Assembly: GCF_004323735.1 (NCBI RefSeq)
Contig: NZ_CP036455.1
Span: 739,101 to 803,100 of the forward strand
From: Streptomonospora litoralis
Lineage (GTDB): Bacteria > Actinomycetota > Actinomycetes > Streptosporangiales > Streptosporangiaceae
DNA: 64,000 bases
Direction of reading: 5' to 3'
Both the position numbers and the translations under genes were made by a program. The notes under the pieces were generated by a model, which worked only from the letters and a program-made list of their open reading frames with translations, did no database searches and had not been told where the DNA came from. Below, one piece after another: positions 7,731-41,277 of this stretch. Each line of letters starts with the position of its first letter. Position 1 is the first letter of the stretch.

Positions 7731-7821
7731 GCGGCTTGGCCCGTCTATCGCGAACTTATGGTCGCAGGTAAGCGTATTCCGCGGCCATAAGTTCGCGATA
7801 CATCGCCGGATGGGCCGGCAT
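7731..7821. repeat. Palindromic mosaic repeat, copy 1
   Basis: A 91-base block differing at one base from 41187-41277. Its centre is a perfect inverted repeat, TATCGCGAACTTATGG (7746-7761) and its complement (7785-7800), around a 23-base loop. In RNA the stem could extend inward through a G-U pair. It is preceded by a GC-rich block also found before copy 3. Confidence 0.85.
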
Positions 7822-8145
7822 AGGGGACATACCGGCGCCCGCACGACCCGAAGGTGCGCCGGATCGGGGCCGGGGGGCGACGACACGTCGCTCGTGGTGT
7901 CCGGGCGCGGCCGACGACTGCCCCACCGTCCGATGGGGTGGGCTTTTGGGGGCCTATCCCCGTTTTGCGGGCGGCCTCGGCGGGCGCGGCGGCGACGAGG
8001 TGCACGAAAAGTCGACGCCGGGGGCGCTTCTCGCGCCATTCGGCGTACCTCGTGCGCCACCGCCGCCGCGGCGCGGCTGCGGGCCCACCGGGGAATCGGG
8101 CATTGGTGGACGAAACACCCCGTGTTGTTCCGTATCGCGGAATCA

Positions 8146-8335
8146 CGGTGCGCGGGTGGCACCTCGGGGCGACACCGAGGCGGATAGCGCCGCACGTACG
8201 TGCATCCCGTGGCCCGAACCGGCCGCATGACCGCCGCCGGGAGCCCCGCATCAGGCCGCGCCGACAACCGAGCGGCGACCCCCGGGCTCGACCACCCGCA
8301 GCCAGGGGCCGGTTGACCGTCGTCGCGACCACCGC
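8146..8335. repeat. Block D repeat, copy 1
   Basis: About 190 bases that align with 25002-25195. A 30-base identical run lies at 8225-8254 (and 25082-25111), and a CCTCGG...CCGAGG stem is kept in both copies although its loop differs. In both loci block D lies downstream of the palindromic repeat. Confidence 0.8.
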
Positions 8336-8451
8336 GGGCTGGGCCATCCGCCGCCGTCGCCGCCGCTTTTCCTTCAGGCAGCCTGATACCCGCCAGGCTT
8401 CAAGACCGCTCGGCAGACCGGGGGCGCCGCACCCCCGAGAGGCGCCGACCC

Positions 8452-8511
8452 CCGGTTGCCACCGGAACCGCACCCCGGTGGCCACCGGCACCGAGTACCG
8501 GTGGCCACCGG
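8452..8511. repeat. Three palindromes at a 23-bp period
   Basis: CCGGTTGCCACCGG (8452-8465), CCGGTGGCCACCGG (8475-8488) and CCGGTGGCCACCGG (8498-8511) start exactly 23 bases apart with unrelated 9-base spacers. The last unit ends 16 bases from the stop of the LCP gene (minus strand). The arrangement would put all sites on one face of the helix, as for a cooperatively bound operator; a compound terminator is the alternative. Confidence 0.75.
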
Positions 8512-8527
8512 GGGCACTATCGTCGTC

Positions 8528-9979
8528 CTACGAGCATTTCTGCTCGGCCTCGGCCGCGGTGGTGCCTTCGACGCCGCCGGCCGAGTCGCCTGAGGAGCCG
8601 CCGCTGCTCCCGGCGGTACTGGTGAAGCCCTCCCAGTCCTGGGCGAGCACGAGCTGAACCGTGTCGCCGAGGTTGGGGCTCTCCTCGATGGTGGCGTTGA
8701 CGGCTTCGTCGGCGAGGGCCTGGGCGTGGGCCTTCTTTCCGGGGCCGTAGTAGATCGTGGTCTGAGAGGGGATCTGGAGCGGATTGCCCGTGCCGGCCAC
8801 CTGGAAGCCTTCGGTGGTCAGCCACTGGCCCACCTGGCTGGCCAGGTCGGGCGTGCCTTCGCCGTTGAGCACCTCCACGGAGATGTCCGCGGGCTTGACC
8901 TGCTCCTTCTCCTGCTCCTTGCCCTTGTCCCCGCCGGAGCCCTCGCCGCCGCCGTCGTCGCCGGTGATGCTCTGGTCCTTGGAGACGGCGTCGAACAGCT
9001 GCGAAGCCTGGGGCTGGGTGAGAGCGAGGCGGTTGGGATCGGACGGGGCCTGGCCGTTGGGCGCGGTGACGAAGTTGATGTTGCCCATGTCGACCTCGCG
9101 CATCGCGATCGCGATGTCGGTCATGACCTCAAGCGTCAGCTGGTCGTCGGTGGTCATGGTCTCGGTGACCGAGCCGAGGAACGAGGTGATGTTGCCTGGG
9201 CGGGTCAGGATCTTGCCGTTCATGATCTGGTTGAGCATCGCGCCGAGGAACTCCTGCTGGCGCTTGATGCGGCTGAGGTCGCTGCCGTCGCCCTGGCCGT
9301 AGCGGGAGCGCATGTAGCCCAGCGACTCCTCGCCGTTGAGGACCTGCTCGCCGGCTTCGAGGTGCAGCTTGGCCTTCTCGTCGTCGATAGGTTCGGGGAT
9401 GCACATGCGCACACCGCCGACCGAGTTGACGATGCCCTTGAACCCGCTGAAGTCGACGCTGACGAAGTGGTCGATGTGGATGCCGGTGACCTGTTCGACG
9501 GCCTTCCACTGGCACTGGATCCCGCCGAACGACATCGGCGAGTTGATCATGCCGCGCTGGGCCGGCATGCCCGGCTTGTCGCCGCTGCCCTTGCATGCTG
9601 GCAGGTCGACGATCAGGTCGCGCGGCAGGTTGATCAGGCTCGCGCGGCCGTTGTTGGGGGAGATGTGCGCGACGATCAGCGAGTCGGGGCGCGCACCCTC
9701 CGCTTCACCGTAGTTCGCGTTTTCACCGGTGCGGATGTCCGAACCGATCACCATGATGTTCAGTGCGCCCTCGACCCTGCTGGGCCGGTCGCCGAACGCG
9801 TCGGTGTTGATGTTCTGCTGCTCGATGTTGCCGTAGATGTCGTAGTAGGCGGCATAGGCCGTGAGACTGGTACCGATCACGGCCGCGGTGGTGAGCACCG
9901 CGAGCCAGCCGCCTATCGACAGGCTCTTCCTCGCCGCGCGGCCCTTCGCGGAACCTCGGGACGAGCGTTTTCCGGGCAT
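8528..9979 (-). CDS. LytR-CpsA-Psr (LCP) family glycopolymer ligase
   Basis: Extracytoplasmic enzyme expected to move lipid-linked glycopolymers onto peptidoglycan. In 483 residues, a basic cytosolic tail is followed by one membrane anchor (~residues 22-46, WLAVLTTAAVIGTSLTAYAA). The LCP domain includes NIMVIGSDIRTG, ARPDSLIVAHI, LINLPRDLIVDLP, VDFSGFKGIVNSVGGV and MRSRYGQGDGSDLSRIKRQQ, with the Asp and Arg residues used for pyrophosphate lipid binding. An acidic linker (GDDGGGEGSGGDKGKEQEKE) leads to a C-terminal LytR_C domain (ISVEVLNGEGTPDLASQV). The ATG at 9979 is used. It lies beside glycan-building genes, which fits an attachment role. Confidence 0.95.
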   Translation of the reverse strand: MPGKRSSRGSAKGRAARKSLSIGGWLAVLTTAAVIGTSLTAYAAYYDIYGNIEQQNINTDAFGDRPSRVEGALNIMVIGSDIRTGENANYGEAEGARPDSLIVAHISPNNGRASLINLPRDLIVDLPACKGSGDKPGMPAQRGMINSPMSFGGIQCQWKAVEQVTGIHIDHFVSVDFSGFKGIVNSVGGVRMCIPEPIDDEKAKLHLEAGEQVLNGEESLGYMRSRYGQGDGSDLSRIKRQQEFLGAMLNQIMNGKILTRPGNITSFLGSVTETMTTDDQLTLEVMTDIAIAMREVDMGNINFVTAPNGQAPSDPNRLALTQPQASQLFDAVSKDQSITGDDGGGEGSGGDKGKEQEKEQVKPADISVEVLNGEGTPDLASQVGQWLTTEGFQVAGTGNPLQIPSQTTIYYGPGKKAHAQALADEAVNATIEESPNLGDTVQLVLAQDWEGFTSTAGSSGGSSGDSAGGVEGTTAAEAEQKCS

Positions 9980-10001
9980 GTGGCACCAATGAGGGGAGGG
10001 G

Positions 10002-10850
10002 TCAGGTCAGCGGCTTGAATGCCTCGGCGAGTGCGGGGGTGCCGGGCCACGCACCGGCGATCGCCGTGGCACGCTCCATTTCCAGCCGCGGTTGCAGGTT
10101 AGCCGAATCGCTACCGGGGAGCAGGAGGAGCGGCAGCGCCCCGGCGACCGGCCCGAGGAGGAGGGCCAGACGGGCACCCAGCGCAGCGGGGGAATTCGGC
10201 GCAGAGGTGATGATAGCCACGCGATCGGCCGGTGTCAGCCCCCACGCGGCCAGCCTGCCGCGGGCGTTTTCGGTCAGCTCGGCTCCCGAGCAGGTCAGCT
10301 CCGAAATTGCGGCACCGGTCAGGTCGGTGCCACCGGACGCGTCCGCGACGACCTCGAACGCCGGAGCCGACGGATCCAGCGGCCCGGGGGAGAAGTGGTC
10401 GCCGTACCCGCGCACCTCGACGCCGTAGTCCGTCGCCGTCGGCGGGCACTCGGGCAGCGGTGCGCCGAGCGGGTGCAGCGACGTCCCCACCACCTCGCGC
10501 GCGCCGGTGCCCAGGGCGGCCTCCAGCCGTTCGGGGTCGGCCACCGCGATGTCGCAGTCGGGGATCGCGCCGGGACCGCCGTCCACCGCGGTCGTGCCGG
10601 TCGCGAAGCACGCGAGCAGCCACACCAGGCTCTGCCAGTGCACCGGCAGCGCCAGGGCGACGCGGTCGCCCGGTTCGGCGCCGAGGCCGTCGACGAGCAG
10701 GTTCGCCGTCTTGGACACCCAGTTGTCGACGGTGGCGAAGGACAACTCCACGCGTCCGCCGCTCGCCTCGTCGTAGGCGGTGACGAACGGGCGCGCGGGG
10801 TCGGCGGCGACAGCCGACCGCCACAGGTCCGCAGGAGTCTCGGTACCCAT
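10002..10850 (-). CDS. TIGR03089 family protein (short acyl-CoA synthetase-like)
   Basis: A 282-residue protein resembling the N-terminal part of AMP-forming acyl-CoA synthetases but about half their length. Visible segments are VELSFATVDNWVSKTANLLV, GDRVALALPVHWQSLVWLLA and a C-terminal LTPADRVAIITSAPNSPAAL. The usual phosphate-binding loop and adenylation core motifs are absent, so catalysis is doubtful. Actinobacteria carry this family (TIGR03089) next to LCP genes, as here, 22 bases upstream of the LCP start. The ATG at 10850 was chosen (MGTETPADLWR); the longer frame to 10949 adds only a basic, low-complexity tail. Function is unknown; a lipid- or CoA-binding role linked to the LCP ligase is a guess. 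Confidence 0.8.
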   Translation of the reverse strand: MGTETPADLWRSAVAADPARPFVTAYDEASGGRVELSFATVDNWVSKTANLLVDGLGAEPGDRVALALPVHWQSLVWLLACFATGTTAVDGGPGAIPDCDIAVADPERLEAALGTGAREVVGTSLHPLGAPLPECPPTATDYGVEVRGYGDHFSPGPLDPSAPAFEVVADASGGTDLTGAAISELTCSGAELTENARGRLAAWGLTPADRVAIITSAPNSPAALGARLALLLGPVAGALPLLLLPGSDSANLQPRLEMERATAIAGAWPGTPALAEAFKPLT

Positions 10851-11136
10851 CCGCCGTCCTCTCCCAGTCGCCTCGGGTGCGTCGCGGTGTTGCGAGCGCC
10901 GCTCGCGGCCGCGGGTATTCCGACCCGCCGCGCGCCACATGTTACTCACGGGGAAAGAGGGTCGTTCACGTCCGCGCGCGGCCCGCGCGGCGGCGGGGGC
11001 GTCCGCGCCCGCCGCCGCGCGGGCCGCCGGTGCCGGGCGGCGAGTGCCCGCGGCGCCGTCAGGCGGGCGCTCCGCTCAGCGGCCTCCCGGCGGCCTCGTG
11101 GCGCACCCGGCGCGGCGAAGCTGAGAAGGTGCATGC

Positions 11137-13182
11137 ATGGGATCGACCTCCGCCCGCCTGTTCGCCCGTGTCACCGCAGCACCGGCCGCCGCCCTGACGG
11201 CGTGGTTGCTCGTCGCATTCCCGCTGCTGCTCGCCGATGTGCTCACCCCGCTCACCGGCGCGCTCCTGGGGATCCCGGCGGTCGCGGTGGTTCTGGTGGC
11301 GGTCTTCCGGCTGGTGCCCGCGCTGCCCGGCGAGGGCGACGCCGGCCGCGGTCTGCCGTGGTGGCCGCTCGCGCTGACCGCGCTGATCGCCGCCGCCTTC
11401 GCCGCCGTGCAGCTGGGCTACCACTCCGAGATTCTGGTCATCCGCCGTGATCCAGCCTCGTATGCGCAGTACACCTCGTGGATCGCCCAGCACGGCTCGC
11501 TCCCCATCCCCCAGCAGCGCGACCTGATCGCCGGGGACCATCCCGCGCTGGTCTACGGCAGCCTGGCCTATTACCAGGTCGGCGACGTCATCTGGCCGCA
11601 GTTCCTCGCGGGCGCCCCGCTCGTCTACACCGTGGGCCACTGGCTGGGCGGGATCACCGGCATGCTGGTGACTCCGCCGGTCGTCGGTGCGCTGGGGGTG
11701 CTCACCTTCGGAGGGCTGACTGCCCGCCTCGTGGGCCCGCGCTGGGCGCCCGCCGGTGCGCTGCTGCTGGCCGTGTGCCAGACGCAGCAGTGGATCAGCC
11801 GCTCCACTTACAGCGAGCCGGTGGCCCAGGTGCTGCTGCTGGGCGCGCTGGCGCTGGCCTTCGACGCGCTCACGAGACGCGTGCGGCTCGGCGGCTGGAG
11901 CAGGTGGCACACCCTCGCGGGCGCCGCCGGACTGGTCTTCGGGATGGGCCTGGTGGTGCGCGTCGACGCGCTGCGCGACCTGCTGCCGGTGGTGGCGTTC
12001 GCGGGCCTGCTGCTGCTCGCCCGGCGCGGCCAGGCGCTGCCGCTGCTGGGCGGTCTCGCGGTGGGCCTGGGCTACGGCGCCGTCGCCGGCTACGGCCTTT
12101 CCCGCCCCTACCTGGAGCACCTCTCGGCGTCGCTGAACCCGCTGCTGGCGATCAGCGCGGCGGTGCTCGTCTGCGTCGCCGCGGGTGTCGCCCTGCTGTG
12201 GCGGCGCGGCGTCCCCCGCGGCGACCGGCCGTCGTGGCTGCCCGCGGCCGCGGCCGTCGCCGTCGTCCTGGTGATGGCGGGGCTGGCGCTGCGCCCGCTG
12301 TTCTACACCGACCTCGGGCACGGCGACGAGGCCACGGCCGCCTACATCGGGCAGGTGCAGGAGATCGAGAACCTGCCGCAGAACCCCGACCGCACCTACT
12401 ACGAGATGAGCCTGTACTGGGTGGGCTGGTACGTGGGCCTGAGCACGGTCCTGCTGGCGACGTTCGGCGCGGCGCTGCTCGTGCGGCGCATCATGCAGCA
12501 CCGGGCGCAGCAGTGGGTGCTGCCCGCGATGGTGCTGTCCTGGACAGTGGTGACGACCCTGCTGCGGCCGGCCATCACCCCCGACCATCCGTGGGCGAGC
12601 CGGCGGCTGATCGTCCTGGTGCTTCCGGCCTTCATCCTGTTCGCGGTGTGGTTCACCGCCTGGCTGGCGCGTCGGGTGAACACCGATTCCGTAGGCGGGC
12701 GGGCCTGGCGGGGCCGGGCGATGTCGGCGACGGCGGCCGCCGTGGGCATCGGTGTGATGCTCGTGCCCACGGCAGTCACCGCCGCCGGGGTGATGACCTA
12801 CCGCTCAGACGTGGGCAGCGTCGCCGCGACGAAGAAGCTGTGCGACGCCATACCTCCGGATGCCAGCGTCCTCATGGTCGACGGGGTCTACGGCGGCTAC
12901 ATGCAGCTGGTCCGCGGCATGTGCGGCGTACCCGTCGCCGGGCTCTCCTCGGCCGAGCCCGAACGCGACGTCGCGCGTATCATCGAGGAGATCGAGCAGC
13001 GCGGCCGCACACCCGTGCTCGCCGCATCGCAGCCGCGCCGCATCATCCCCCACATCTCCCCGGACACGCCCGTGCGCCACCCCTTCGACGTCCACACCAC
13101 GCAGGATCCCAGCACCCTGATGAAGCCGCCCTCGGGCGGATGGATCTTCGACGGCGACGTGTGGATCGCCGTCGTGCCCTGA
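11137..13182 (+). CDS. Large multi-pass membrane protein, GT-C-like
   Basis: A 681-residue integral membrane protein with about a dozen hydrophobic segments starting at residue ~15, and an extracytoplasmic C-terminal domain of ~120 residues after the last helix near residue 545. The first large loop reads IRRDPASYAQYTSWIAQHGS, similar to the acidic first loop of GT-C polyprenyl-phosphate-dependent glycosyltransferases, where an Asp is catalytic. It is followed by a GT2 gene like those that make polyprenyl-phosphate sugars, which fits a donor-synthase plus membrane-transferase pair. The ATG at 11137 is used. Specific sugar and acceptor are unknown. Confidence 0.75.
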   Translation: MGSTSARLFARVTAAPAAALTAWLLVAFPLLLADVLTPLTGALLGIPAVAVVLVAVFRLVPALPGEGDAGRGLPWWPLALTALIAAAFAAVQLGYHSEILVIRRDPASYAQYTSWIAQHGSLPIPQQRDLIAGDHPALVYGSLAYYQVGDVIWPQFLAGAPLVYTVGHWLGGITGMLVTPPVVGALGVLTFGGLTARLVGPRWAPAGALLLAVCQTQQWISRSTYSEPVAQVLLLGALALAFDALTRRVRLGGWSRWHTLAGAAGLVFGMGLVVRVDALRDLLPVVAFAGLLLLARRGQALPLLGGLAVGLGYGAVAGYGLSRPYLEHLSASLNPLLAISAAVLVCVAAGVALLWRRGVPRGDRPSWLPAAAAVAVVLVMAGLALRPLFYTDLGHGDEATAAYIGQVQEIENLPQNPDRTYYEMSLYWVGWYVGLSTVLLATFGAALLVRRIMQHRAQQWVLPAMVLSWTVVTTLLRPAITPDHPWASRRLIVLVLPAFILFAVWFTAWLARRVNTDSVGGRAWRGRAMSATAAAVGIGVMLVPTAVTAAGVMTYRSDVGSVAATKKLCDAIPPDASVLMVDGVYGGYMQLVRGMCGVPVAGLSSAEPERDVARIIEEIEQRGRTPVLAASQPRRIIPHISPDTPVRHPFDVHTTQDPSTLMKPPSGGWIFDGDVWIAVVP

Positions 13183-13220
13183 ACGTCCCATGCGGCGGCA
13201 CAGCTATCCTGAACCCCACC

Positions 13221-14150
13221 GTGAGCGAGATGACCCCGAACGAAGACAGTGCGCCGGAGCGGACGCCCGATGTCACCGTCGTGCTGCCCTGCTTCAACGA
13301 GCAGGACCACGTCATCAAGGAGGTCGAGCGCGTCTGCGCCGCGATGGACGCCTCGAACCACTCCTACGAGGTGCTGACGGTCGACGACGCCTCAACCGAC
13401 GACACCCTCGCGCTGCTGCGCGAGGCCGAGCCGCTCTTCCCGCACCTGCGGGTGATCTCCTTCGGCCACAACGGGGGAGCGGGCACGGTGCGCCGCATCG
13501 GCACCCAGCGCGCCCGCGGGCGCGTCGTCGTGTGGACCGACGCCGACATGACCTACCCCAACGAGCGGATTCCCGAGCTGGTGGACGTACTCGCGGCCAA
13601 CCCCGACATCGACCAGGTCGTCGGGGCCCGCACGCAGGAGTCGGGCAGCCACCGCCTGCTGCGCGTGCCCATGAAGTGGCTGATCCGCAAGCTCGCCGAG
13701 CGCCTGACCAATACCCGCATCCCCGACCTCAACTCGGGCCTGCGCGCCTTCCGCCGCGAGGTGGCGCTGCCCTATCTGCGCCTGCTGCCACCCGGATTCT
13801 CGTGTGTGACGACGATCACTCTGGCGTTCCTGTCCAACCAGCACCTCGTGCACTACATGCCGATCGACTACGCCAAGCGGTCGGGTAAGTCGAAGTTCCA
13901 CTTCGTGCGCGACGCCTACCGGTATCTGCTGCAGGTGCTGCGGATGGTCATGTACTTCAACCCGCTCAAGGTGCTGATGCCGCTCGCGCTGTGGCTCCTG
14001 GGCATCGGCGCGGCCAAGTTCGTCTTCGACCAGGTGCGGGAGCCGCTCTACATCCCCAACAACACCATCATGCTGCTGACCAGCGGACTGATCGTGGCGG
14101 CCATGGCGCTGCTGGCCGACCTGATCGTGCGCTCGCGCGACGGCGCCTGA
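13221..14150 (+). CDS. GT2 glycosyltransferase, polyprenyl-phosphate sugar synthase-like
   Basis: Probably transfers a sugar from a nucleotide donor to polyprenyl phosphate on the inner membrane face. The GT-A domain starts near residue 15 (DVTVVLPCFNEQDHVIKEVE), with LTVDDASTDDTLALL and the metal-binding VWTDADMTYPNERIPELV (DxD-type DAD). FRREVALPYLRLLPPGFSC and KRSGKSKFHFVRDAYRYL are typical of DPM1/GtrB-like enzymes. Two C-terminal membrane helices (~residues 248-300) anchor it. The GTG at 13221 gives 309 residues; an ATG at 13230 is a near-equal choice. It lies 38 bases after the GT-C-like gene and 7 bases before a GT4 gene, so an operon is likely. Confidence 0.9.
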   Translation: MSEMTPNEDSAPERTPDVTVVLPCFNEQDHVIKEVERVCAAMDASNHSYEVLTVDDASTDDTLALLREAEPLFPHLRVISFGHNGGAGTVRRIGTQRARGRVVVWTDADMTYPNERIPELVDVLAANPDIDQVVGARTQESGSHRLLRVPMKWLIRKLAERLTNTRIPDLNSGLRAFRREVALPYLRLLPPGFSCVTTITLAFLSNQHLVHYMPIDYAKRSGKSKFHFVRDAYRYLLQVLRMVMYFNPLKVLMPLALWLLGIGAAKFVFDQVREPLYIPNNTIMLLTSGLIVAAMALLADLIVRSRDGA

Positions 14151-14157
14151 GGCCGGC

Positions 14158-15249
14158 ATGCGCATCAGCCTGGTAGGTCCGGCGCACCCCTACAAGGGCG
14201 GCGGCGCGCGCCACACCACCGAGTTGGCCCGCGAACTGGCGGTGCGCGGGCACACGGTCGCCATCGAGTCGTGGCGGGCGCAGTACCCCGAACGGCTCTA
14301 CCCCGGTCGCCAGACCGTCGACGCCCCGGAGGGCGAGCTTTTCGGCGACACCCGGCGCCACCTCTCGTGGAACCGGCCGCTGGGGTGGTGGCGCACCGGC
14401 CGCCGCGCAGGCGCGGAGGCCGACCTGGTCGTCGTGACCGTGCTGATCCCCGCACAGGCCGTGCCCTACCTGGGCATCCTGGCCGGGGTGGGAGCGCGGG
14501 CACGCACGCTCGCGTTGTGCCACAACGTGCTGCCGCACGAGCGGCGCCCCGGCGACACCGCGCTCATGCGCATGCTGCTGCGGCGCGTCGACGCGGTGCT
14601 GGCGCACTCCCCCGAGCAGGCCCGGCTGGTCCGAGGGCTCGTCGGCGACGGGGCGTCGGCGCGCTGGGCACCGCTGCCGCCGCACCTGCCCCGGGCGCAA
14701 GGCGCGGACGCGCCCCCGGCCGAGGGTGGCACGCGGCGCAACCTGCTGTTCTTCGGCATCGTGCGGCCCTACAAGGGCGTCGACGTACTGCTGCGCGCCT
14801 TCGCCCGGGGAGCCCCGGCCGATGTCGGGCTCACCGTCGCCGGTGAGTTCTGGGGCGGCTCCCAGCGGTTGCGCGACCTCGCCCGCGAGCTCGGTGTGGC
14901 CGACCGCGTCGTTTTCCGGGAGGGCTACGTGCCGGCCGCGCAGCTCCCCGGGCTGTTCGCGGGCGCCGACGCGCTGGTGCTGCCCTACCGGTCCGCAACC
15001 GCCACGCAGAACGTATATCTGGCCCACGAGCACGGCCTCCCGGCGATCGCCACCCGCGCCGGCGGGCTCGCGGACCAGGTGACCGACGGCGTGGACGGCC
15101 TGCTGTGCGAGCCGGGCGACGCCGACGACCTCACCTGTGCCCTGCGCCGGTTCTACACCGGCGACACGGCCGAGCGGCTGCGCGCCGCGGTGCGTCCCGT
15201 CGACCCCGCACCGCATTGGGACGCCTACATCGAGGCGTTGACGGGCTGA
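14158..15249 (+). CDS. Family 4 glycosyltransferase
   Basis: A 363-residue GT-B enzyme, probably extending a lipid-linked glycan in the cytosol. The N-terminal glycine-rich motif is at residues 2-20 (RISLVGPAHPYKGGGARHT). The donor-binding half begins near residue 195 (NLLFFGIVRPYKGVDVLLRA) and ends with DALVLPYRSATATQNVYLAH and GLPAIATRAGGLADQVTDG. The classical E-x7-E region is modified here: the second acidic residue position falls in YLAHEHGLPAIA. The ATG at 14158 lies 7 bases after the preceding GT2 stop, so the two are probably co-transcribed. Substrates cannot be told from sequence. Confidence 0.88.
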   Translation: MRISLVGPAHPYKGGGARHTTELARELAVRGHTVAIESWRAQYPERLYPGRQTVDAPEGELFGDTRRHLSWNRPLGWWRTGRRAGAEADLVVVTVLIPAQAVPYLGILAGVGARARTLALCHNVLPHERRPGDTALMRMLLRRVDAVLAHSPEQARLVRGLVGDGASARWAPLPPHLPRAQGADAPPAEGGTRRNLLFFGIVRPYKGVDVLLRAFARGAPADVGLTVAGEFWGGSQRLRDLARELGVADRVVFREGYVPAAQLPGLFAGADALVLPYRSATATQNVYLAHEHGLPAIATRAGGLADQVTDGVDGLLCEPGDADDLTCALRRFYTGDTAERLRAAVRPVDPAPHWDAYIEALTG

Positions 15250-15312
15250 GCGGCCGCCGTGCCCGAACGCCGCGGCCACCGCGTCGGCGACCACGGCGTT
15301 AGTGTGAGTGCC

Positions 15313-16458: not shown

Positions 16459-16507
16459 TCGGCGCCGGCCCTTCGCCGCGAATGCGCCAGGGGGCCGACA
16501 CGAGGAA

Positions 16508-16531
16508 CGCGCCCGGCCTCGGCCGGGCGCG
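16508..16531 (+). terminator. Terminator hairpin after metB
   Basis: An 11-bp perfect stem (CGCGCCCGGCC, loop TC) lies 50 bases after the metB stop and between convergent genes, so it may serve both strands. Confidence 0.75.
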
Positions 16532-16578
16532 CGGTGCGCCTGCCGCCTCAGCGGCGGCGCGTCGCCTTCATTCGGGCG

Positions 16579-16863
16579 TCACGCTACTGCTTGGGGGTGC
16601 CCGTAGCGTGAGTCGTCCTCTTCGTCCTGCTCTTCCGCGGTGGTCCCGGAGTCCACGGGGACCGAGCCGTTGTCGAGGAACCGCAGTCCGCTGAAGCTGC
16701 GTCCCGCACCGGAGAAAGTGCGGTCGTCGCGCCCGTTGCGGAGGGCGCGGTAGTGGCCGCGGTCGCTGCGCCGGATACCGATGGTGGCGGCGACCAACAT
16801 GCCCAGCAGCGCGCTGAAGAAGACGACGAGGATGACCACGATCGTTCCGATTACCAGGGACAT
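16579..16863 (-). CDS. Small single-pass membrane protein
   Basis: A 94-residue protein of unknown function. One membrane helix occupies residues ~2-28 (LVIGTIVVILVVFFSALLGM), followed by a basic segment and an acidic cytosolic tail (TTAEEQDEEDDSRYGH). The ATG at 16863 follows a strong GAGGAGGGG ribosome binding site 2 bases away in the complement, which fixes the start; a longer frame to 17133 has no such support. It diverges from the first GntR gene across 240 bases containing a palindrome, so it may be a target of that regulator. Confidence 0.7.
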   Translation of the reverse strand: MSLVIGTIVVILVVFFSALLGMLVAATIGIRRSDRGHYRALRNGRDDRTFSGAGRSFSGLRFLDNGSVPVDSGTTAEEQDEEDDSRYGHPQAVA

Positions 16864-16932
16864 TGCCCCTCCTCTCGCTCCGTGCGGGCACCCGTCCGAT
16901 GTCCGCACGCTCCGGCCTGGGCGACCGGAAGA

Positions 16933-18073: not shown

Positions 18074-18092
18074 CCGCAGGGGAGGCGGGACC

Positions 18093-24390: not shown

Positions 24391-24427
24391 CCCGCGTTTA
24401 GGCCGAGGTGGATCCGGGGGCGCCTCG

Positions 24428-24701
24428 GGTCTGCTGTGCGGCCTTGTTGGTCTGCCGGGGTGCGGGTGGTCTTCACTGGAAAGCGGCGCCGAGGGCACCG
24501 CGGGGTGACGCCCGCGCCCAACGGGCCGGGTGCTCGCCGGTGGCGCGTGCGGCGGGGCGGCGGCTGCGGTCTGCTGTGCGGCCTTGTTGGTCTGCCGGGT
24601 GCGGGTGGCCTTCACTGGAAAGCGGCGCCGAGGGCACCGCGGGGTGACGCCCGCGCCCAACGGGCCGGGTGCTCGCCGGTGGCGCGTGCGGCGGGGGCGG
24701 C
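24428..24701. repeat. Tandem duplication of a 140-base unit
   Basis: The unit starting at 24428 restarts at 24568. Over the first ~128 bases the two copies differ by one single-base deletion and one T-to-C change, indicating a recent duplication or homogenisation. Each unit ends in GTGCTCGCCGGTGGCG, a core found again at 41055 and inverted three times in 25235-25465. Confidence 0.9.
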
Positions 24702-24801
24702 GTTCGGGGGCCGCGGGCCGGTCGGCGCATCTAATGCGCGGTTTCCACCGGATTCCGGCCGCTGTCTGGACGGAACCCTGCGTTGGTCGACAGCGGTGCC
24801 A

Positions 24802-24859
24802 TCGAGTCTGTCTGCAGGGACGGATTCGGCGCCGAATCTCACCCTGGAGACAGACTCGA
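24802..24859. repeat. 58-base near-perfect palindrome
   Basis: Arms TCGAGTCTGTCT and its exact complement enclose CAGGG/CCCTG and a central 16-bp perfect palindrome, GATTCGGCGCCGAATC; only one 1x1 and one 3x3 mismatch interrupt it. It ends 7 bases before palindromic repeat copy 2 and is absent from the other two copies. Confidence 0.85.
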
Positions 24860-24860
24860 C

Positions 24861-24938
24861 GCGTCTATCGTGAACTTATGGCCACAGGAAAGCGCATTCC
24901 GCGGCCATAAGTTCACGATCATCGCCGGTATGGCCGGC
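24861..24938. repeat. Palindromic mosaic repeat, copy 2
   Basis: Divergent copy of the 91-base block. The stem is ATCGTGAACTTATGGCC (24867-24883) with its exact complement at 24903-24919, 17 bp. Relative to copy 1, one arm base changes C to T and the facing base changes G to A, so pairing is preserved. Confidence 0.85.
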
Positions 24939-25001
24939 TGAGTGTCGCCGTGTTCCGGCCGGGCCCGCACCGGCCGGAGGCCGCGCGGCGGGGTGGATTG
25001 A

Positions 25002-25195
25002 CGGTGCGGGGGCGGCACCTCGGGGCGGCGCCGAGGCCGATGCCGCCGCACCTACGTGCGACTCGTTGCCCCGACCCGGGTGCATGACCGCCGCCGGGAG
25101 CCCCGCATCAGACCCGCGCCGACAACCGAGCGGCGGCCCCCGGGTCTCGACCATCCGCGGCCAGGGGCCGGTGACCGCCGCCCCGACCACCGCAG
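25002..25195. repeat. Block D repeat, copy 2
   Basis: Counterpart of 8146-8335, with scattered substitutions and identical runs of up to 30 bases. It starts ~80 bases after the palindromic repeat here, against ~350 bases in region R1. Confidence 0.8.
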
Positions 25196-25293
25196 GAACG
25201 GCCCCGCCGGCGTCGCCGCCGCCCCCGCGGACCACCGCCACCGGCGAGCACCCGACCCGGTGACCGCAGGCCCGACCATCCGCCGCCCTCGCC

Positions 25294-25353
25294 GCCGCTT
25301 TCCAGTTAAGACCACCCGCCACCCGGCAGACCAACAAGGCCGCGCAGCAGAGC
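25294..25353. repeat. Inverted copy of the start of the 140-base unit
   Basis: About 60 bases that match the reverse complement of 24428-24487 with a few changes, including the segment GACCAACAAGGCCGC. With the tandem pair it forms large inverted repeats flanking the palindromic element. Confidence 0.8.
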
Positions 25354-25625
25354 CGAGCCGCCGATCCGTCAGACGCGCCACCGGCGAGCACCCGATCCGT
25401 TGGGTGCAGGCGCCACCCCGCGGCCTCGCCGCCCCGTCGGGTGCCCAACCGGCGAGCACCCGACCCGGTGACCGCAGGCCAGCCATCCGCCGCCCTCGCC
25501 GCCGCCTTCCGTCCCGGAACCCCGTCATCCGTCAGATCACAAGGCCGCACAGCGCTCCGCGCCGCTCACCTGCACCGCTGAGTCCGCCGCGCATCACTCC
25601 GCCCCTTCTGCCGGCGCTTTCCCTT

Positions 25626-32326: not shown

Positions 32327-32395
32327 CGCGCCGACCGGGAGGGCTCCCTGTGGGCGCGGTGGCATCGACGGCGGCTGTGCGGGCAGAGTGGAGGT

Positions 32396-34390
<1,995 letters not shown>

Positions 34391-34398
34391 CGCACGCA

Positions 34399-34424
34399 GG
34401 CGGGCCGCCGAGCGGCGGCCCGCC
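34399..34424. terminator. Convergent terminator hairpin
   Basis: An 11-bp perfect stem (GGCGGGCCGCC, loop GAGC) begins 9 bases after the DUF255 stop and lies before the kinase gene's stop, so it may serve both directions. Confidence 0.75.
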
Positions 34425-34462
34425 GATCGCTGCGCCGCGCGTCGGCGTCGGCGTGCGGCGGT

Positions 34463-35836
34463 TCAGCGTTCCAACCGGGTGGCGGCGATGATGCGGTCGA
34501 TCACATTCGGGCTGTGCGCGGGTCGGCGGACTTCCAGGTAGAGGGTCGTGCCGTGGTCGCGGGCGGCCAGCAGGGCGACGGCCACCGTGGTCGGCTGCCC
34601 CGGGCAGTCGGACCACTCTCTGATCTCGCCCGACCAGTCGGCTCCGGTGAAGGCGCGCCGTTCCGCCTGCCCGGCACAGGGGGAGCCGGTCAGCATCGCG
34701 TCGAGGTCGCGGCCGGTGCCGGGCAGCAGGGCGGCGAACACCCCCGCCACCGCCGCCTCGGGGTCGTCCCAGCTGTCGAGGTCGGTGGCCACCAGCACCC
34801 CTGAGGCGCGGTCGGACTCGACCGCGCTGGGCACCGCCCGGCCGTTGTGGAACTGCTGGGCCCAGGCGGCCGGGACCGCGAGGTGCAGGTCGTCGCCCGC
34901 GTAACGCACTTCGGTGAGGGCCCCTACGGTGGAGGCCGCCGCGCCTGTGGTGCCGGCGACCAGCGCCGCGGCCGCGACCCCCGCGGCGACCGCACGCTGC
35001 CAGGCCCGGCGGTACCGCACCCACCACGGTAGCTGTGAGCGCAGGTCGGGTGTCATCCGGATGGCGCGGATGCGGTCGGTGAAGGCTTTGGCGTCAGATG
35101 GCCGGGCCGCGCGGTCCTCGGCGAGCGCGGACATGATCACGTCGTCGAGTGCGCGCGGCACTCCGGGGCGCAGCCGCCGCGGCGGCACCCGCACCGGCGG
35201 GGGCGGCGGCCGCCGCCCGGTAATCAGCTCGTAGGCGACGGCGCCGAGAGAGTAGACGTCGGCCCGCACGTCCAGGTCGCCGCCCGGCCCGCGCTGCTCG
35301 GGGGACATGTAGCCGGGCGTGCCCGCGGCCGCGGTGAAGCCCGAGGCGCCGTCGATGGCCTTGGCGAACCCCAGATCGGCGACGAGCACTCGTTGGCCCA
35401 CCGGGGACGACTGCAGAAGCACGTTGGAGGGCTTGATATCCCGGTGGATGGTGCCGTGGCGGTGGAGGACGGTTACGCCTTGGCCGATTTCGGTCAGCAG
35501 CCGCAGGGCCTCGTCCAGTGGAAGGGGGCCCTTGGCGGTGAGGTCGGCGACGCTGCCCTGGTCGGCGTAGGGCATGACGAAGTACGGCCGCTCGTCGGGG
35601 AGCGTGCCGATGTCATGCACCCTGACCAGCCATGCGGAGTCGGCCTGGCGGAGGATCCGGGCCTCTTCCATGAAGCGGTGGTGCACATCCAGTTGGTGCG
35701 ACCAGTTCTCGGCGAGGACTTTGACGGCCACGGGGGTGTCCAGCCGGTCGTCGTGCGCGAGCCATACTGTCGCGAACGAGCCCGAGCCGAGATGCCGAAT
35801 GACGCGGTATCGGCCGAAAGTGTCCGGTTGTGCCAC
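34463..35836 (-). CDS. Serine/threonine protein kinase with extracellular domain
   Basis: A 457-residue membrane kinase. The catalytic domain covers residues ~8-265: glycine loop IRHLGSGSFATVWLA, Lys in VAVKVLAENW, catalytic loop HRDIKPSNVLL, ADLGFAK (DLG in place of DFG) and GTPGYMSPEQR. One membrane helix (~301-322, AVAAGVAAAALVAGTTGAAA) leads to an outer domain of ~135 residues (LHLAVPAAWAQQFHNGRAVP, with two Cys) that is not PASTA. The GTG at 35836 was chosen as it starts ten residues before the glycine loop. It diverges from an ECF sigma gene across 184 bases, suggesting a shared signalling circuit. Confidence 0.93.
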   Translation of the reverse strand: MAQPDTFGRYRVIRHLGSGSFATVWLAHDDRLDTPVAVKVLAENWSHQLDVHHRFMEEARILRQADSAWLVRVHDIGTLPDERPYFVMPYADQGSVADLTAKGPLPLDEALRLLTEIGQGVTVLHRHGTIHRDIKPSNVLLQSSPVGQRVLVADLGFAKAIDGASGFTAAAGTPGYMSPEQRGPGGDLDVRADVYSLGAVAYELITGRRPPPPPVRVPPRRLRPGVPRALDDVIMSALAEDRAARPSDAKAFTDRIRAIRMTPDLRSQLPWWVRYRRAWQRAVAAGVAAAALVAGTTGAAASTVGALTEVRYAGDDLHLAVPAAWAQQFHNGRAVPSAVESDRASGVLVATDLDSWDDPEAAVAGVFAALLPGTGRDLDAMLTGSPCAGQAERRAFTGADWSGEIREWSDCPGQPTTVAVALLAARDHGTTLYLEVRRPAHSPNVIDRIIAATRLER

Positions 35837-36020
35837 AGGTAGTGCCTTACCAGTGCCGCAGGGGCCAAACGTCGGGGAGGATGCTGTGCGCAGGGCGGCG
35901 AACGGGTCCGGGGAGCCGCTTCGGCCCCCTACGCGTCGAAGGGGGATGTGAACCTCATAGTGGGGGACGGGCGTGTAACAGGTGTAGACGACGAAGCGTC
36001 TTTCAGGGGAGCTGGCAGCC

Positions 36021-36608
36021 GTGGACAACAGTGAGAAGGGCTCGGGATCCCGCCGGCCGGCGGCCAGGGTCGACGATTCCCTGGAGGATCTCGCCCGCAG
36101 GGCGCGCGACGGCGACTCCGCGTCGCTGGACGAATTGCTGCGCAGGATCCAGCCGGAGGTACTGCGGCGCTGCGCCCGGTTCCTGCCCTACCGGCAGGAC
36201 GCCGAGGAGGCGTGCCAGGACGCGCTACTGCGCGTCGCCCGCAACATCGGCGGCTTCAAAGGCGATTCGCTCTTCACGACGTGGCTGTATACGGTGGTCT
36301 CGAACTCGGCGCGGCAGACCTACCGGTCGATGAAGCGGCGCTCCGCGGAGCTTCCCACGGAGTCCGACCGCATACCGAACCAGCGCGACCCCCGTACCAC
36401 CAGCGTGATCGCGGGTTCCCGGATCGACCTGCTGGAGGCCCTCGACCAGCTCGAACGCGACCGCCCCAACCTGGTCGCCCCGCTGGTGCTGCGCGACCTC
36501 TGCCAGATGGACTACAAGGAGATCGCGACCGAACTCGACCTCGCGCTGGGCACGGTGAAATCGCGTATCCACGAGGGCCGCAAGCACGTCCGCGCGTCGC
36601 TGCAGTGA
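36021..36608 (+). CDS. ECF-type RNA polymerase sigma factor
   Basis: A 195-residue sigma factor. Region 2 is at ~residues 28-98 (LDELLRRIQPEVLRRCARFL, YRQDAEEACQDALLRVARNI, GDSLFTTWLYTVVSNSARQT), which contacts the -10 element. Region 4 is at ~140-193 (VLRDLCQMDYKEIATELDLA, LGTVKSRIHEGRKHVR), which contacts the -35 element. There is no C-terminal extension. The GTG at 36021 follows AGGGGAGCTGGCAGCC. No anti-sigma gene is adjacent; the divergent kinase is the obvious candidate controller, as known for some actinobacterial ECFs controlled by phosphorylation, but this is inference. Confidence 0.93.
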   Translation: MDNSEKGSGSRRPAARVDDSLEDLARRARDGDSASLDELLRRIQPEVLRRCARFLPYRQDAEEACQDALLRVARNIGGFKGDSLFTTWLYTVVSNSARQTYRSMKRRSAELPTESDRIPNQRDPRTTSVIAGSRIDLLEALDQLERDRPNLVAPLVLRDLCQMDYKEIATELDLALGTVKSRIHEGRKHVRASLQ

Positions 36609-36737
36609 CGGAATCCGGCGAATCGGCCTAGGCTGGACACGTGTAGGCGCGCATTGCTCGGGTCGTTGCGCCGAGTGCGGTGGCATGGACTGGCGCGTCC
36701 GCGCCTGTCCCCCGATCGCGGCGAAAGGTAGCGTCCC

Positions 36738-37499
36738 ATGGGGTTCCGTGACCCCCTGTACTGGCTTTACGAGCGTCGGCTGGAGCGTTCGCTCGGCACG
36801 TTCGAAATTCCCCGGCACGTCGGCGTCGTCCTCGACGGAAACCGCAGATGGGCCAGGATCAGCGGCCTCGCCAACGTCCAGCAGGGCCACCAGGCCGGTG
36901 CCGAGAAGATCTTCGACCTGCTGGGGTGGTGCGACGAGGTCGGCGTCCAGGTGGTCACCCTGTGGCTGCTGTCCACCGACAACCTCGCCCGGCCGCGCGA
37001 GGAGCTGGAACCGCTGTTGAAGATCATCGAGGACACGGTGAGCCGGCTGCGCCGCGAGGGCTGGAACGTCAACCCCATGGGTGCCCTGGACCTGCTGCCC
37101 GATTCCACCGCCCGCGTGATGAAGGAGGCGCACGCGGCCACATCCGGAAACTCCGGCCTGATTGTGAATGTTGCGGTCGGGTATGGAGGTAGACGTGAGA
37201 TCGCGGATGCGGTGCGGTCGCTCCTCCTCGCCGAGGCGGCCAAGGGCACCAGTATCGAGGAGCTCGCCGAGCGCCTCGACCTGGAGCACATCGCCGAGCA
37301 TCTCTACACGCGCGGCCAGCCCGATCCGGATCTCCTCATCCGCACCTCGGGCGAGCAGCGACTCTCCGGGTTCATGCTCTGGCAGAGCGCACAGGCGGAG
37401 TTCTACTTCTGCGAGGTCTTCTGGCCGGCCTTCCGCAAAGTCGACTTCCTGCGTGCGCTGCGTGCCTATGGTGCGCGCAACCGGCGCTTCGGCTCCTGA
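36738..37499 (+). CDS. Cis-isoprenyl diphosphate synthase (UppS-like)
   Basis: Condenses isopentenyl diphosphate with an allylic diphosphate to give a cis-polyprenyl or short Z,E product used for the glycan lipid carrier. In 253 residues the substrate Asp is in VGVVLDGNRRWARISG (residues ~26-41), with TLWLLSTDNLARPREEL and the C-terminal LLIRTSGEQRLSGFMLWQSA. Family length is normal. The mycobacterial homologue at this position in the order makes Z,E-farnesyl diphosphate (Rv1086), but chain length cannot be read here. The ATG at 36738 follows GAAAGGTAGCG. It fits the glycan theme of the window and lies before phoH. Confidence 0.93.
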   Translation: MGFRDPLYWLYERRLERSLGTFEIPRHVGVVLDGNRRWARISGLANVQQGHQAGAEKIFDLLGWCDEVGVQVVTLWLLSTDNLARPREELEPLLKIIEDTVSRLRREGWNVNPMGALDLLPDSTARVMKEAHAATSGNSGLIVNVAVGYGGRREIADAVRSLLLAEAAKGTSIEELAERLDLEHIAEHLYTRGQPDPDLLIRTSGEQRLSGFMLWQSAQAEFYFCEVFWPAFRKVDFLRALRAYGARNRRFGS

Positions 37500-37796
37500 G
37501 CCGCCTCCTTCCCGAACCGGCCGCACCGCCCCGCTGACGAAACGGAGGAAATGCCGCGTAACGGGGTGTTCACATGCCGTGCGACCTGGGGGTCTTGCTC
37601 TTTCCAAGGAGCCGGGTACCGTCGAAAGCAGTGGACGGTGCCCATCCGTTCACTCGGGAGGCCCCGAGCGTTTGAGGTCCTGGCCAGTGAAGGAACTCAT
37701 GGACACGAGGGCCGGTCCCGGCCCTGTCGGGGCTGGTCCCGGTCCTTGGTATCCCGTGAGACCAGGGCGCCCAGCTGCGCCCAAAGGGGAGAACGA

Positions 37797-39143
37797 GTGG
37801 CTAGTTCCTCGACCCACCGCCGTGCCGACGACACTCCCGACCTAGCTGACCAGGGGGGCAAGCGGCGGACCTACGTGCTCGACACCAGCGTCCTGCTGGC
37901 CGATCCGGCATCGATCGGACGGTTCGCCGAGCACGGGGTGGTCCTGCCGATAGTCGTGATCACCGAACTGGAGAGCAAGCGACACCACCCCGAACTCGGG
38001 TATTTCGCGCGCGAGGCGCTGCGCCGGCTGGACGGCCTCCGTGTCGCCAACGGCGGCCTCGACGTCGACATCCCGGTGAACGAGGAAGGCGGCACGCTGC
38101 GGGTTGAGCTCAACCACAGCGACCCGTCGATCCTCCCGGCGGGGTTCCGGCTGGGCGACAACGACACCCGGATCCTGACCGTCGCGCGCAACCTGCAGGC
38201 GGAGGGCGCCGATGTCGTCCTCGTCAGCAAGGATCTCCCAATGCGGATCAAGGCTTCCTCCATCGGGCTCACCGCCGACGAATACCGCGCCGAGCTCCCC
38301 ATCGAGCACGGGTGGACCGGCGTGGCCGAGCTGGAAGTCCCCGCCCACGAGGTCTCGGCACTGTTCGAGGGCGGCGGCACCGCCGATATCGAGGCGGCGC
38401 GCGACTTCCCCTGCCACACCGGGCTGATGCTGGTCTCCGAGCGGGGCAAGGCGCTGGGCAGGGTTCTCCCCGACAAGTCGGTCAAGGTGGTCAAGGGCGA
38501 CCGCGACGTCTTCGGCCTGCACGGCCGCAGCGCCGAGCAGCGGATCGCCCTGGACCTGCTCACCGACCCCGAGGTCGGCATCGTCTCCCTGGGCGGGCGC
38601 GCCGGTACCGGCAAGTCCGCCCTGGCGCTGTGCGCGGGCCTGGAGGCCGTCCTGGAGCGCGGCCAGCACCGCAAGGTCATGGTCTTCCGTCCGCTCTACG
38701 CGGTGGGCGGCCAGGAACTGGGCTACCTCCCCGGTACCGAGAACGAGAAGATGTCGCCCTGGTCCCAGGCGGTCCACGACACCCTCTCGGCGGTCACCAC
38801 CCAGGACGTCATCGACGAGGTGGTCGACCGCGGCATGCTGGAGGTCCTGCCGCTGACCCACATCCGCGGGCGCTCGCTGCACGACGCGTTCGTCATCGTC
38901 GACGAGGCGCAGTCGCTGGAGCGCGGCGTACTGCTGACCGTGCTGTCGCGGCTGGGCGAGAACTCCCGCGTGGTGCTCACCCACGACATCGCCCAGAGCG
39001 ACAACCTGCGGGTCGGGCGCTACGACGGCGTCGTGGCCGTCGTCGAGAAGCTCAAGGGCCACCCGCTGTTCTCCCACATCACGCTCACCCGGTCGGAGCG
39101 GTCGCCCATAGCGGCCCTGGTCACCGAGATGCTGGAGGGCTGA
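37797..39143 (+). CDS. PIN-PhoH fusion ATPase (PhoH2-like)
   Basis: A 448-residue cytosolic protein joining a PIN RNase domain to a PhoH ATPase/helicase. PIN residues lie at ~21-150 ([62 protein letters not shown]). PhoH follows with Walker [15 protein letters not shown] and Walker [16 protein letters not shown], plus [17 protein letters not shown]. PhoH2 proteins are RNA helicase-RNases, and in mycobacteria a small PhoAT partner precedes them; none was seen in the 297 bases upstream. The GTG at 37797 follows AAAGGGGAGAACGA. That gap holds no other recognised gene. Confidence 0.93.
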
Positions 39144-39215
39144 CTCGGTCCGATCGCGCGCAGACGCCGGCCTTTCGTATGCGGGATTGCGACGGAGGTC
39201 CCCCGGGTCCGGGTG

Positions 39216-39241
39216 CCCGTCGCCGGCGAGCCGGCGACGGG
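39216..39241 (+). terminator. Terminator hairpin after phoH-type gene
   Basis: A 12-bp perfect stem (CCCGTCGCCGGC, loop GA) lies 73 bases after the stop at 39143 and upstream of phoD. Confidence 0.65.
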
Positions 39242-39361
39242 GCCGGATACCGGTTCGCGACGTGGATAACCACCGTTAATACGGAATTCGGACGTCCGCG
39301 CGGGCGCGTGCGATAGAACCCTTGGGCGAGCTGCCGTCCGACTCCCGCAGGAGGCCCTCCC

Positions 39362-40984
39362 GTGCCCGCGTTCCCTGATCCCGCCGAGTCCCCCGCGTCT
39401 CCCGCAGAGCCGCCCGAAGGCTCCGTCCCCCTTGCCGCGCCCGCCGGCGCGGCGCAGACTCCGCCCCGGCGCTCGGTGCTGCGCTACGGCGCGGCCGGAC
39501 TGGGCGCCGCCGCCGTCGGCGCGCTGCCGGCCGCTCCCGCCCTGGCCCACGGCCGCAACCGGCCGAGCCTCACCCACGGCCTGCAGTTCGGCGACCCCCG
39601 CCGCGACGGCGCCGTGGTGTGGACCCGCGCCGACCGCCCCGCTCGCATGGTCGTCGAGGTCAGCAACCGCCCCGACTTCAAGCACGCCCGGACCCTGCAC
39701 GGCCCGTGGCTGACTCCCGCCCACGACGGCACCGGCCGCCTCCGCATCCACGGCCTAGAGCCGGGGCGCCAGGCCTATGTCCGGGTGCGCGCCGAGTCCG
39801 GGCGCGCCTCCAGCGAGGTGCTGGAGGGTTCCTTCCGCACCCCCGGCGGCGACGACCCGATCCGGTTCGTGTGGGCCGGCGACGTGGCGGGCCAGGGCTG
39901 GGGCGTCAACCCCGAAATCGGCGGCGGCATGCCGATCTTCACCGCCATGGCCGATCGCGAGCCAGACTTCTTCCTGCACAGCGGCGACGCCTGCTACGCC
40001 GACGGACCGCTGCAGGAGCGCGTGGAGCTGCCCGACGGCCGGGTGTGGCGCAACCTGGTGACCGAGGCGAAGTCCAAGGTGGCCGAGACCCTCGACGAGT
40101 TCCGCGGCCAGTACGCCTACAACCTGCAGGCCGATGCGCTGCGCGGCTTCGCGGCCCGGGTCCCGCAGATCGTGCAGTGGGACGATCACGAGGTCACCAA
40201 CAACTGGTATCCCGGCGAGGTGCTCGAAGACGACCGCTACCGCGTCCGCCGGGTGGACGTCCTCGCCCGCCGTGCGCACCGGGCCTTCCACGAGTGGCAG
40301 CCGATCGTCCGCCGCGAGGCGGTCGACGGGCGGATCTTCCGCAAGATCGGCTACGGGCCGGACCTGGACGTTTTCGTGATCGACATGCGCCACTACCGCG
40401 ACGCCAACTCCGAGGGCACGGACCGCTTCGAGAACGTCCTCGGCTGGCGGCAGGCCGCGTGGCTGATGCGGGAGCTGGCGCAGTCGCGGGCGACCTGGAA
40501 GGTCGTGGCCTCGGACATGCCCATCGGACTCGTCGTGCCCGACGGCGACGTGATCGAGGGCGTGGCCAACGGCGCGGACGGGCGGCCGCGCGGCCGGGAG
40601 TCGGAGCTGGCGTGGGTGCTGCACGGCCTGCACCGCCGTGGTGTGCGCGACGTGGTGTGGCTGACCGCCGACGTGCACTACACAGCGGCACACCACTACT
40701 CGCCCGAGCGGGCCGCGGCACCCGAGTTCACGCCGTTCTGGGAGTTCGTCTCGGGCCCGCTGCACGCGGGCGCGTTCGGTCCCAACGAGCTCGACCCCAC
40801 CTTCGGCCCGGAGGCGGCCTTCGTGCACGCACCGCCGCGGGCCAACATTTCGCCCCTGGAGGGCTTCCAGCACTTCGGCGAGGTCGAGATCGACCCCGCG
40901 AGCAAGGACCTCACGGTGACCCTGCGCGACGGCCAGGGCGACGCCCTCTGGGCGAAGACCCTGACGCCCGAGCGGCGCGGCTAA
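39362..40984 (+). CDS. phoD: PhoD-type alkaline phosphatase, Tat-exported
   Basis: Exported phosphatase/phosphodiesterase of 540 residues that releases phosphate from esters outside the cell. A twin-arginine signal is at residues ~38-66 (PPRRSVLRYGAAGLGAAAVG, then PAAPALAHG). A N-terminal Ig-like domain (LQFGDPRRDGAVVWTRADRP) precedes the metallophosphatase core with metal ligands in FVWAGDVAGQGWG, LHSGDACYADG, QWDDHEVTNNWYPGE, VIDMRHYRDANS and WLTADVHYTAAHHYSP. The GTG at 39362 is used. No Pho box was identified upstream by eye. It lies between phoH and repeat region R3, outside the order seen in mycobacteria. Confidence 0.93.
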   Translation: MPAFPDPAESPASPAEPPEGSVPLAAPAGAAQTPPRRSVLRYGAAGLGAAAVGALPAAPALAHGRNRPSLTHGLQFGDPRRDGAVVWTRADRPARMVVEVSNRPDFKHARTLHGPWLTPAHDGTGRLRIHGLEPGRQAYVRVRAESGRASSEVLEGSFRTPGGDDPIRFVWAGDVAGQGWGVNPEIGGGMPIFTAMADREPDFFLHSGDACYADGPLQERVELPDGRVWRNLVTEAKSKVAETLDEFRGQYAYNLQADALRGFAARVPQIVQWDDHEVTNNWYPGEVLEDDRYRVRRVDVLARRAHRAFHEWQPIVRREAVDGRIFRKIGYGPDLDVFVIDMRHYRDANSEGTDRFENVLGWRQAAWLMRELAQSRATWKVVASDMPIGLVVPDGDVIEGVANGADGRPRGRESELAWVLHGLHRRGVRDVVWLTADVHYTAAHHYSPERAAAPEFTPFWEFVSGPLHAGAFGPNELDPTFGPEAAFVHAPPRANISPLEGFQHFGEVEIDPASKDLTVTLRDGQGDALWAKTLTPERRG

Positions 40985-41054
40985 AGCCGTGTTTGACGGG
41001 GAGCAGCGGGCACCGGGGACGGTGGCAGGTCGGGGACCGCGGTTGTCGGGTCGG

Positions 41055-41186
41055 TGCTCGCCGGTGGCGGTTGCGGCGGGGGGCGGCGTTGGGCCACCGG
41101 GGGCCGGTCGGCGCATCTATTGCGCGGTTTCCACCGGATTGCGGCCGCTGTCTGGTCGAGACCCCGCAATAGGTGGCACCGGTCCC
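41055..41186. repeat. Module present in R3, absent from R1
   Basis: In R1 the GC-rich block and the palindromic repeat are almost adjacent (7728/7731); in R3 they are split by this ~132-base segment. Its first ~100 bases resemble 24670-24775 in R2, including GTTTCCACCGGATT and a small GCGCA...TGCGC stem. It also has CTATTGCG and CGCAATAG facing each other about 50 bases apart. Confidence 0.75.
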
Positions 41187-41277
41187 GCGGCTTGGCCCGT
41201 CTATCGTGAACTTATGGTCGCAGGTAAGCGTATTCCGCGGCCATAAGTTCGCGATACATCGCCGGATGGGCCGGCAT
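41187..41277. repeat. Palindromic mosaic repeat, copy 3
   Basis: Matches 7731-7821 over 91 bases with one difference (T at 41207). That base lies in the left arm (41202-41217) and faces an unchanged G in the right arm (41241-41256): a mismatch in DNA but a G-U pair in RNA. Confidence 0.85.

Follow-up and report, generated by a model that had tools for sequence, protein, structure and literature searches.

MITEs such as the Correia elements and RUP derive from the IS630/Tc1-mariner family. The gene-free islands described here from Streptomonospora litoralis have in common with them inverted ends, a TA duplication, the lack of genes and many intergenic copies; unlike them, the islands reach 1.8 kb, are GC-rich, consist of inverted tandem arrays and carry two long palindromes, and no parent element with the same ends was found for them. 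Duplication of TA is typical of the IS630/Tc1-mariner family according to PMC2170065, through which a preference for CTAG is also on record for an IS630-associated transposon (Tenzen and Ohtsubo 1991). The BrickBuilt MITE of Porphyromonas gingivalis (PMC4596501) is, like the islands, intergenic and MITE-like, with tandem repeats and small inverted ends. It is built from 23-nt repeats, with 19 copies given there for one strain, whereas in the islands inverted arrays of ~72/145-bp units enclose a palindromic core, and the hairpin is present in at least 92 copies. REP, BIME and REPIN sequences (PMC2817692, PMC3116915) likewise form intergenic palindromes, mosaic islands and many copies; unlike these, the present islands are long, have terminal repeats and TA flanks, and are not tied to a Y1 transposase. 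Finally, the hairpins attributed to template switching in PMC8794818 and PMC8604942 resemble the islands in arm homogenisation and spacer inversion; they are described there from RNA genes and yeast coding genes, and the present case is a bacterial mobile repeat. Among open-licence papers, no account of the element itself was found.

The islands are probably gene-free, non-autonomous, MITE-like DNA transposons (0.2–1.8 kb from one recognisable end to the other) that are mobilised in trans by an IS630-type transposase. The analysis started from a stretch of 64,000 nucleotides (the window) with three islands, the features of which are as follows:

7690..8433, plus strand: island 1, repeat-derived DNA common to other islands
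7746..7800, plus strand: hairpin C copy 1, inverted repeat with C-G at the variable pair
7801..7897, plus strand: internally deleted module D of island 1
7920..8229, plus strand: module E of island 1
24415..25577, plus strand: island 2, the most complete of the window, U(-)U(-)-A-B-C-D-E-U(+)U(+)
24419..24630, minus strand: two U units, left inverted array of island 2
24740..24800, plus strand: module A of island 2
24803..24858, no strand assigned: palindrome B of island 2, 56 bp, 4 mismatches in this copy
24867..24919, plus strand: hairpin C copy 2, T-A at the variable pair
24923..25086, plus strand: modules D and E (parts) of island 2
25290..25565, plus strand: U units, right array of island 2
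40985..40999, plus strand: candidate degenerate terminal repeat AGCCGTGTTTGACGG, read from the sequence
40990..41281, plus strand: island 3, shortened, with A, C and a portion of D recognisable
41126..41186, plus strand: module A of island 3
41202..41256, plus strand: hairpin C copy 3, T.G at the variable pair

In the islands, inverted tandem arrays surround a core that contains two palindromes, hairpin C and the 56-bp palindrome B. The module order is kept (inverted U array, A, palindrome B, hairpin C, D, E, U array), and around many copies the gap is taken up almost as far as the flanking genes by repeat-derived DNA. The islands of copies 1 and 3 are shortened; that of copy 2 shows a nearly full module set. 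Island 1 is flanked by convergent genes ending at 7567 and 8528. At island 3, AGCCGTGTTTGACGG lies directly behind the TAA stop of the upstream gene and agrees with the consensus end over no more than its first ten bases; at this site, the sister species G107 reads GGCTAG. Short stretches resembling module D were also seen outside the three islands, at 51969-52026 and 57289-57314 of the window. Elsewhere, locus L216 (G000:C1:1537743-1539352) holds a 1,610-bp island between terminal repeats, in which a diverged hairpin (GCGATCGTG...CACGATCGC) replaces C.

A first-pass annotation of the window had described hairpin C as a palindromic element in three gene-free copies. Its positions were borne out, the blocks 7731-7821 and 41187-41277 differing by a single base, and so were the facing bases (C-G in copy 1; T-A in copy 2, 24861-24938; T.G in copy 3, 41187-41277) and the location of all three copies in gene-free DNA, as judged by our own gene calls. 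The palindrome itself stood as well; its stem had been put at 15–17 bp and was found to be longer, with an arm of ~19–20 bp plus a one-base bulge and a short apical stem. The element had been recognised as no known family, and an Rfam search of the window likewise returned no family at gathering score. Within the window, GAACTTATGGNCNCAG with at most 3 mismatches gave 10 matches against 1.84 expected from shuffles.

The further copies that had been anticipated were abundant. In the genome of the window (5.81 Mb, two contigs), GAACTTATGGNCNCAG with at most 2 mismatches matched 97 + 94 times against 7 + 9 for the reversed control pattern, counts in which one palindrome may score once per arm. 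There were 62 occurrences of the exact two-arm pattern in this genome, and a search of 199 further genomes of the family, five congeners included, gave none. By using a sequence-only model, itself built on 27 of the copies, 150 rows were obtained and reduced by hand to at least 92 distinct hairpin C places. None of the 92 copies overlapped a called gene; genes were called with a self-trained, home-made caller, with rates taken from the 92 loci with their flanks and from the end sites. The gaps holding hairpin C had a median length of 1,268 bp, and 67 of the 92 were 800 bp or longer, a length reached by 2 of the 218 other gaps lying whole within these loci and by 7/184 of the gaps cut by locus edges, which are not among the 218. 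Island sequence had no match in the plasmid and phage collections, nor did the first 20 kb of the second contig in the plasmid collection. Hairpin C is read as the palindrome at the centre of a large mobile repeat that lacks genes and has spread through the chromosome, partly by insertion into the stop codons of genes.

A 15-bp inverted repeat, AGCCGTGTTTAAGAA, terminates many islands; it faces inwards and often lies right behind stop codons. A search with GCCGTGTTNAAGAA (at most 1 mismatch) gave 64 matches in the genome, compared to 2 for a control pattern. At up to 3 mismatches, 76 ends were counted in the loci examined, 69 of them outside genes. The bases preceding these 69 ends were CTA in 40 and TA in 50, with background frequencies of 0.29% (CTA) and 1.0% (TA) of positions; CTAG is rare in this DNA. 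A stop codon was the location of 23/69 ends, and 19 of these 23 stood in exact register, the stop being completed by the first base of the end. Among the 19 facing pairs of ends, TA was present on both sides in 13, with the arrangement CTA..TAG in 9, and was missing on one or both sides in 6. Hairpin C was enclosed by 15 of these pairs, and a called gene was enclosed or overlapped by none; no transposase gene lay inside. The length between the paired ends was 219–1843 bp, reaching beyond the usual MITE size (typically <500 bp according to a review, 50–1000 bp according to another paper). Counted from the hairpins, both ends were recognisable within 2.2 kb in 15/92 and at least one end in 30/92; because the remaining 62/92 show no recognisable end, hairpin and ends are directly linked for about a third of the copies.

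One filled site of the window's genome, CAGCTC-TA-[1,085 bp]-TA-GCCGG, was found empty in three of the five congeners: CAGCTGTAGG (G107), CAGATGTAGG (G147) and CAGCGGTAGG (G030), where a TAG stop is present. To judge from these sequences, the element entered the TAG stop, TA was duplicated and the stop was restored as TAA. The base before TAG is G in all three empty sites, and the CTAG target is therefore known only from the flanks in the window's own genome. At the corresponding position G128 and G080 have other genes and nothing island-like, which has no bearing on insertion.

The three window sites were compared with the same five genomes of the genus (G107, G147, G030, G128 and G080). At the site of copy 1, the distance between conserved parts was 947 bp in the window, 102 bp in G107 and about 350–380 bp in G147, G030 and G128; G080 was rearranged. 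The site of copy 2 measured about 1,250 bp in the window compared to about 50–60 bp in G147, G030 and G128, with the downstream gene missing in G107 and G080 not clear. At the site of copy 3, about 337 bp in the window corresponded to about 64 bp in G107, about 100 bp in G030 and 167 bp in G147 (G128 and G080 rearranged). The spacer was thus shorter than that of the window in all readable comparisons, which were 10 of the 15. In G107, one island gave 146 matches; among the matches listed, all fell in its U-array part. Fifteen chosen G107 loci (L149-L163) contain U arrays with a period of ~72 bp, inverted around a core of about 1 kb, and hold other palindromes, C-like in 6/15 and B-like in 8/15; an AGCCGTG end was seen in none of these 15 loci. 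From these comparisons it follows that the islands differ between close species and that their cores turn over fast.

The genome of the window contains three identical DDE_3 transposase genes of an IS630-type element (G000:C1:1968776-1969213 and two identical copies; L229, L230, L232), the ends of which are GTGTTCTGCGCCTGAAATCCG. One of these copies directly adjoins the end of an island. The three IS630-type elements are flanked by duplicated TA, two of them reading C-TA..TA-G and variants of the third C-TA..TA-A.., and their ends differ from the island ends AGCCGTGTTTAAGAA. Neither an autonomous copy nor a transposase with island ends was found among the end sites examined, DDE_3 had no match in G107 despite its islands of the same layout, and a scan of viral contigs for the end sequence gave six contigs, in which no facing pair was found within 3 mismatches. 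Elements of the IS5 group also use TA-containing targets. This agreement in target would allow the islands to have been moved by an IS5-group rather than an IS630-type transposase, which we consider unlikely: the CTA..TAG arrangement corresponds to a 2-bp TA duplication, and the genome's own DDE_3 elements use the same kind of target.

A partner transposase of REP type had also been envisaged in the first-pass annotation. More than 90 intergenic palindromes set in mosaics are indeed BIME-like, and one intact Y1_Tnp was found in the window's genome. A REP/REPIN-type element moved by a Y1 (RAYT) transposase is nevertheless highly improbable, as Y1_Tnp had no match in G107, with its islands of the same layout, nor in G128, G080 and G147, and as the ends, the TA duplication and the size are unlike those of a short REP.

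Covariation between the arms of hairpin C was counted on 79 distinct rows, in which the proposed structure pairs in 93.7% of cells. Seven pairs were changed on both sides, compared to a shuffled mean of 3.3 (reached in 3/500 shuffles), and 27 cells compared to 12.6 (reached in 0/500); when the 3' partners were slid by 1–3 columns, at most 5 pairs and 12 cells changed on both sides. The covariation score was 0.094 for the real alignment and 0.083, a close value, in one slid version. The compensatory changes proposed in the first-pass annotation thus exceed the controls; its suggestion of selection on a stem, in RNA or DNA, gained no support for RNA beyond that of a neutral mechanism, and 17 of the 27 two-sided cells are a single two-state polymorphism in one pair. 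Arm changes without compensation, which that annotation had named as evidence against its own proposal, are present in some copies. Mismatches over 54 distinct stems (pairs 1–15) comprised 23 G-U and 19 A-C; over 20 pairs in all 92 copies, they comprised 109 G-U and 37 A-C, 66 of the 109 being one inherited T.G pair. The similar G-U and A-C counts do not clearly point to selection on a single RNA strand.

Selection on a functional RNA stem, a bidirectional terminator or 3'-end stabiliser around which the islands grew, would be in keeping with the two-sided changes above controls and with the orientation of the neighbouring genes, which are convergent in 33/92 gaps and divergent in only 8/92. 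A hairpin in Catellatospora with the same 10-bp arm core and 23-base spacing, placed behind stop codons, also speaks for it. We regard this explanation as distinctly doubtful, since hairpin C had no orientation bias relative to co-directional genes (51 gaps; 25 same, 26 opposite), G-U was not in excess over A-C (23 vs 19) once the one fixed pair was set aside, island 1, the sole island scanned, had no terminator-like T-run site, and the gene upstream of copy 1 retains its own GC-rich hairpin at ~7612-7651, ahead of the island. A simple intrinsic terminator was rejected, there being neither a T-run (island 1 scan) nor an orientation to the upstream gene (the 51 co-directional gaps).

The Catellatospora hairpins were found by searching 84,980 species genomes, a collection that may lack records close to the window's genome. 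The exact pattern occurred only in Catellatospora contigs, in 19 stretches with a spacing of always 23 bases. These hairpins (L033-L051) stand alone, 8–27 bases behind a called stop in 18/19 loci, the 19th running off its locus, and as read from the listing have one orientation relative to the preceding gene. The 10-bp arm core, most of the next bases and the 23-base spacing are common to them and hairpin C; the island is absent. By sequence likeness, a common origin is possible; the likeness may also be a chance or convergent match, many thousands of hairpin-rich genomes having been scanned. Long Catellatospora hairpins close behind stops resemble a lineage-specific 3'-end signal, and other long intergenic hairpins of different sequence, with arms of 23–29 bp, were seen at L043 4252-4326 and 6928-7002 and at L050 2602-2672.

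Palindrome B is a stronger case for arm matching than hairpin C. In a search that required the exact 8-base centre and allowed up to 5 mismatches, 23 copies were found in the window's genome, 17 of them perfect over 56 bp and in 7 versions; G107 yielded 3 copies by this search, all perfect and with other arms, and five more B-like palindromes with an imperfect centre were seen there (L149, L150, L155, L158, L159). In hairpin C, spacer and bulge were inverted relative to the flanks clearly in L129, L131 and L137 and likely in L141, with five ties, the orientation being judged from two bases and the side of the bulge. Template switching between arms causes both arm homogenisation and spacer inversion, according to PMC8604942 and PMC8794818. 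The matched base changes can be explained by such copying between arms, with no selected RNA assumed, and template switching is preferred over selection because arm matching and spacer inversion both show signs.

The same palindromes would look much alike if selection acted on B and C as sites in DNA, through a cruciform or the binding of a protein, for instance in chromosome folding or replication, with the islands as carriers. Many copies have remained perfect palindromes while sister species have wholly different arms, which speaks for such sites. This explanation appears quite improbable to us, as template switching gives the same pattern without selection, no strand bias was seen along the chromosome when tested, and many copies have decayed. 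About as remote is the idea that the islands correspond in bacteria to satellite DNA, being gene-free, spread by transposition and homogenised within a species, with the palindrome as the working part; its symmetry would for this reason outlast the sequence turnover between sister species, and DNA structure or a template switch at replication would help the repeat to persist or spread.

For islands moved by an IS630-type transposase, the following course is proposed. The element would insert at TA, mostly inside CTAG, and duplicate TA as IS630/Tc1-mariner transposases do; where an end lies at a stop codon, TA and the first base of the element would make a new stop (TAA or TAG), and the gene would therefore be spared. 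Mobilisation would proceed in trans, presumably by a transposase that has been lost or was not found. A mild effect at the gene end, for instance a block of read-through or shielding of the mRNA 3' end, may make insertions tolerable. The palindromes would be passengers, their arms kept alike mainly by template switching at replication, which may also flip the hairpin spacer.

We class the islands as one family of mobile repeats that are large, non-autonomous and IS630-like and have a palindromic core. With 23 palindrome B copies in one genome, 17 perfect and in 7 versions, they are a natural test bed for whether matched hairpin changes come from selection or from template switching. A third of the recognised ends of this element lie at stop codons, mostly in the stop-restoring register, and stop restoration may let insertions fill an estimated ~2% of a compact genome (92 copies × median gap) with little harm.
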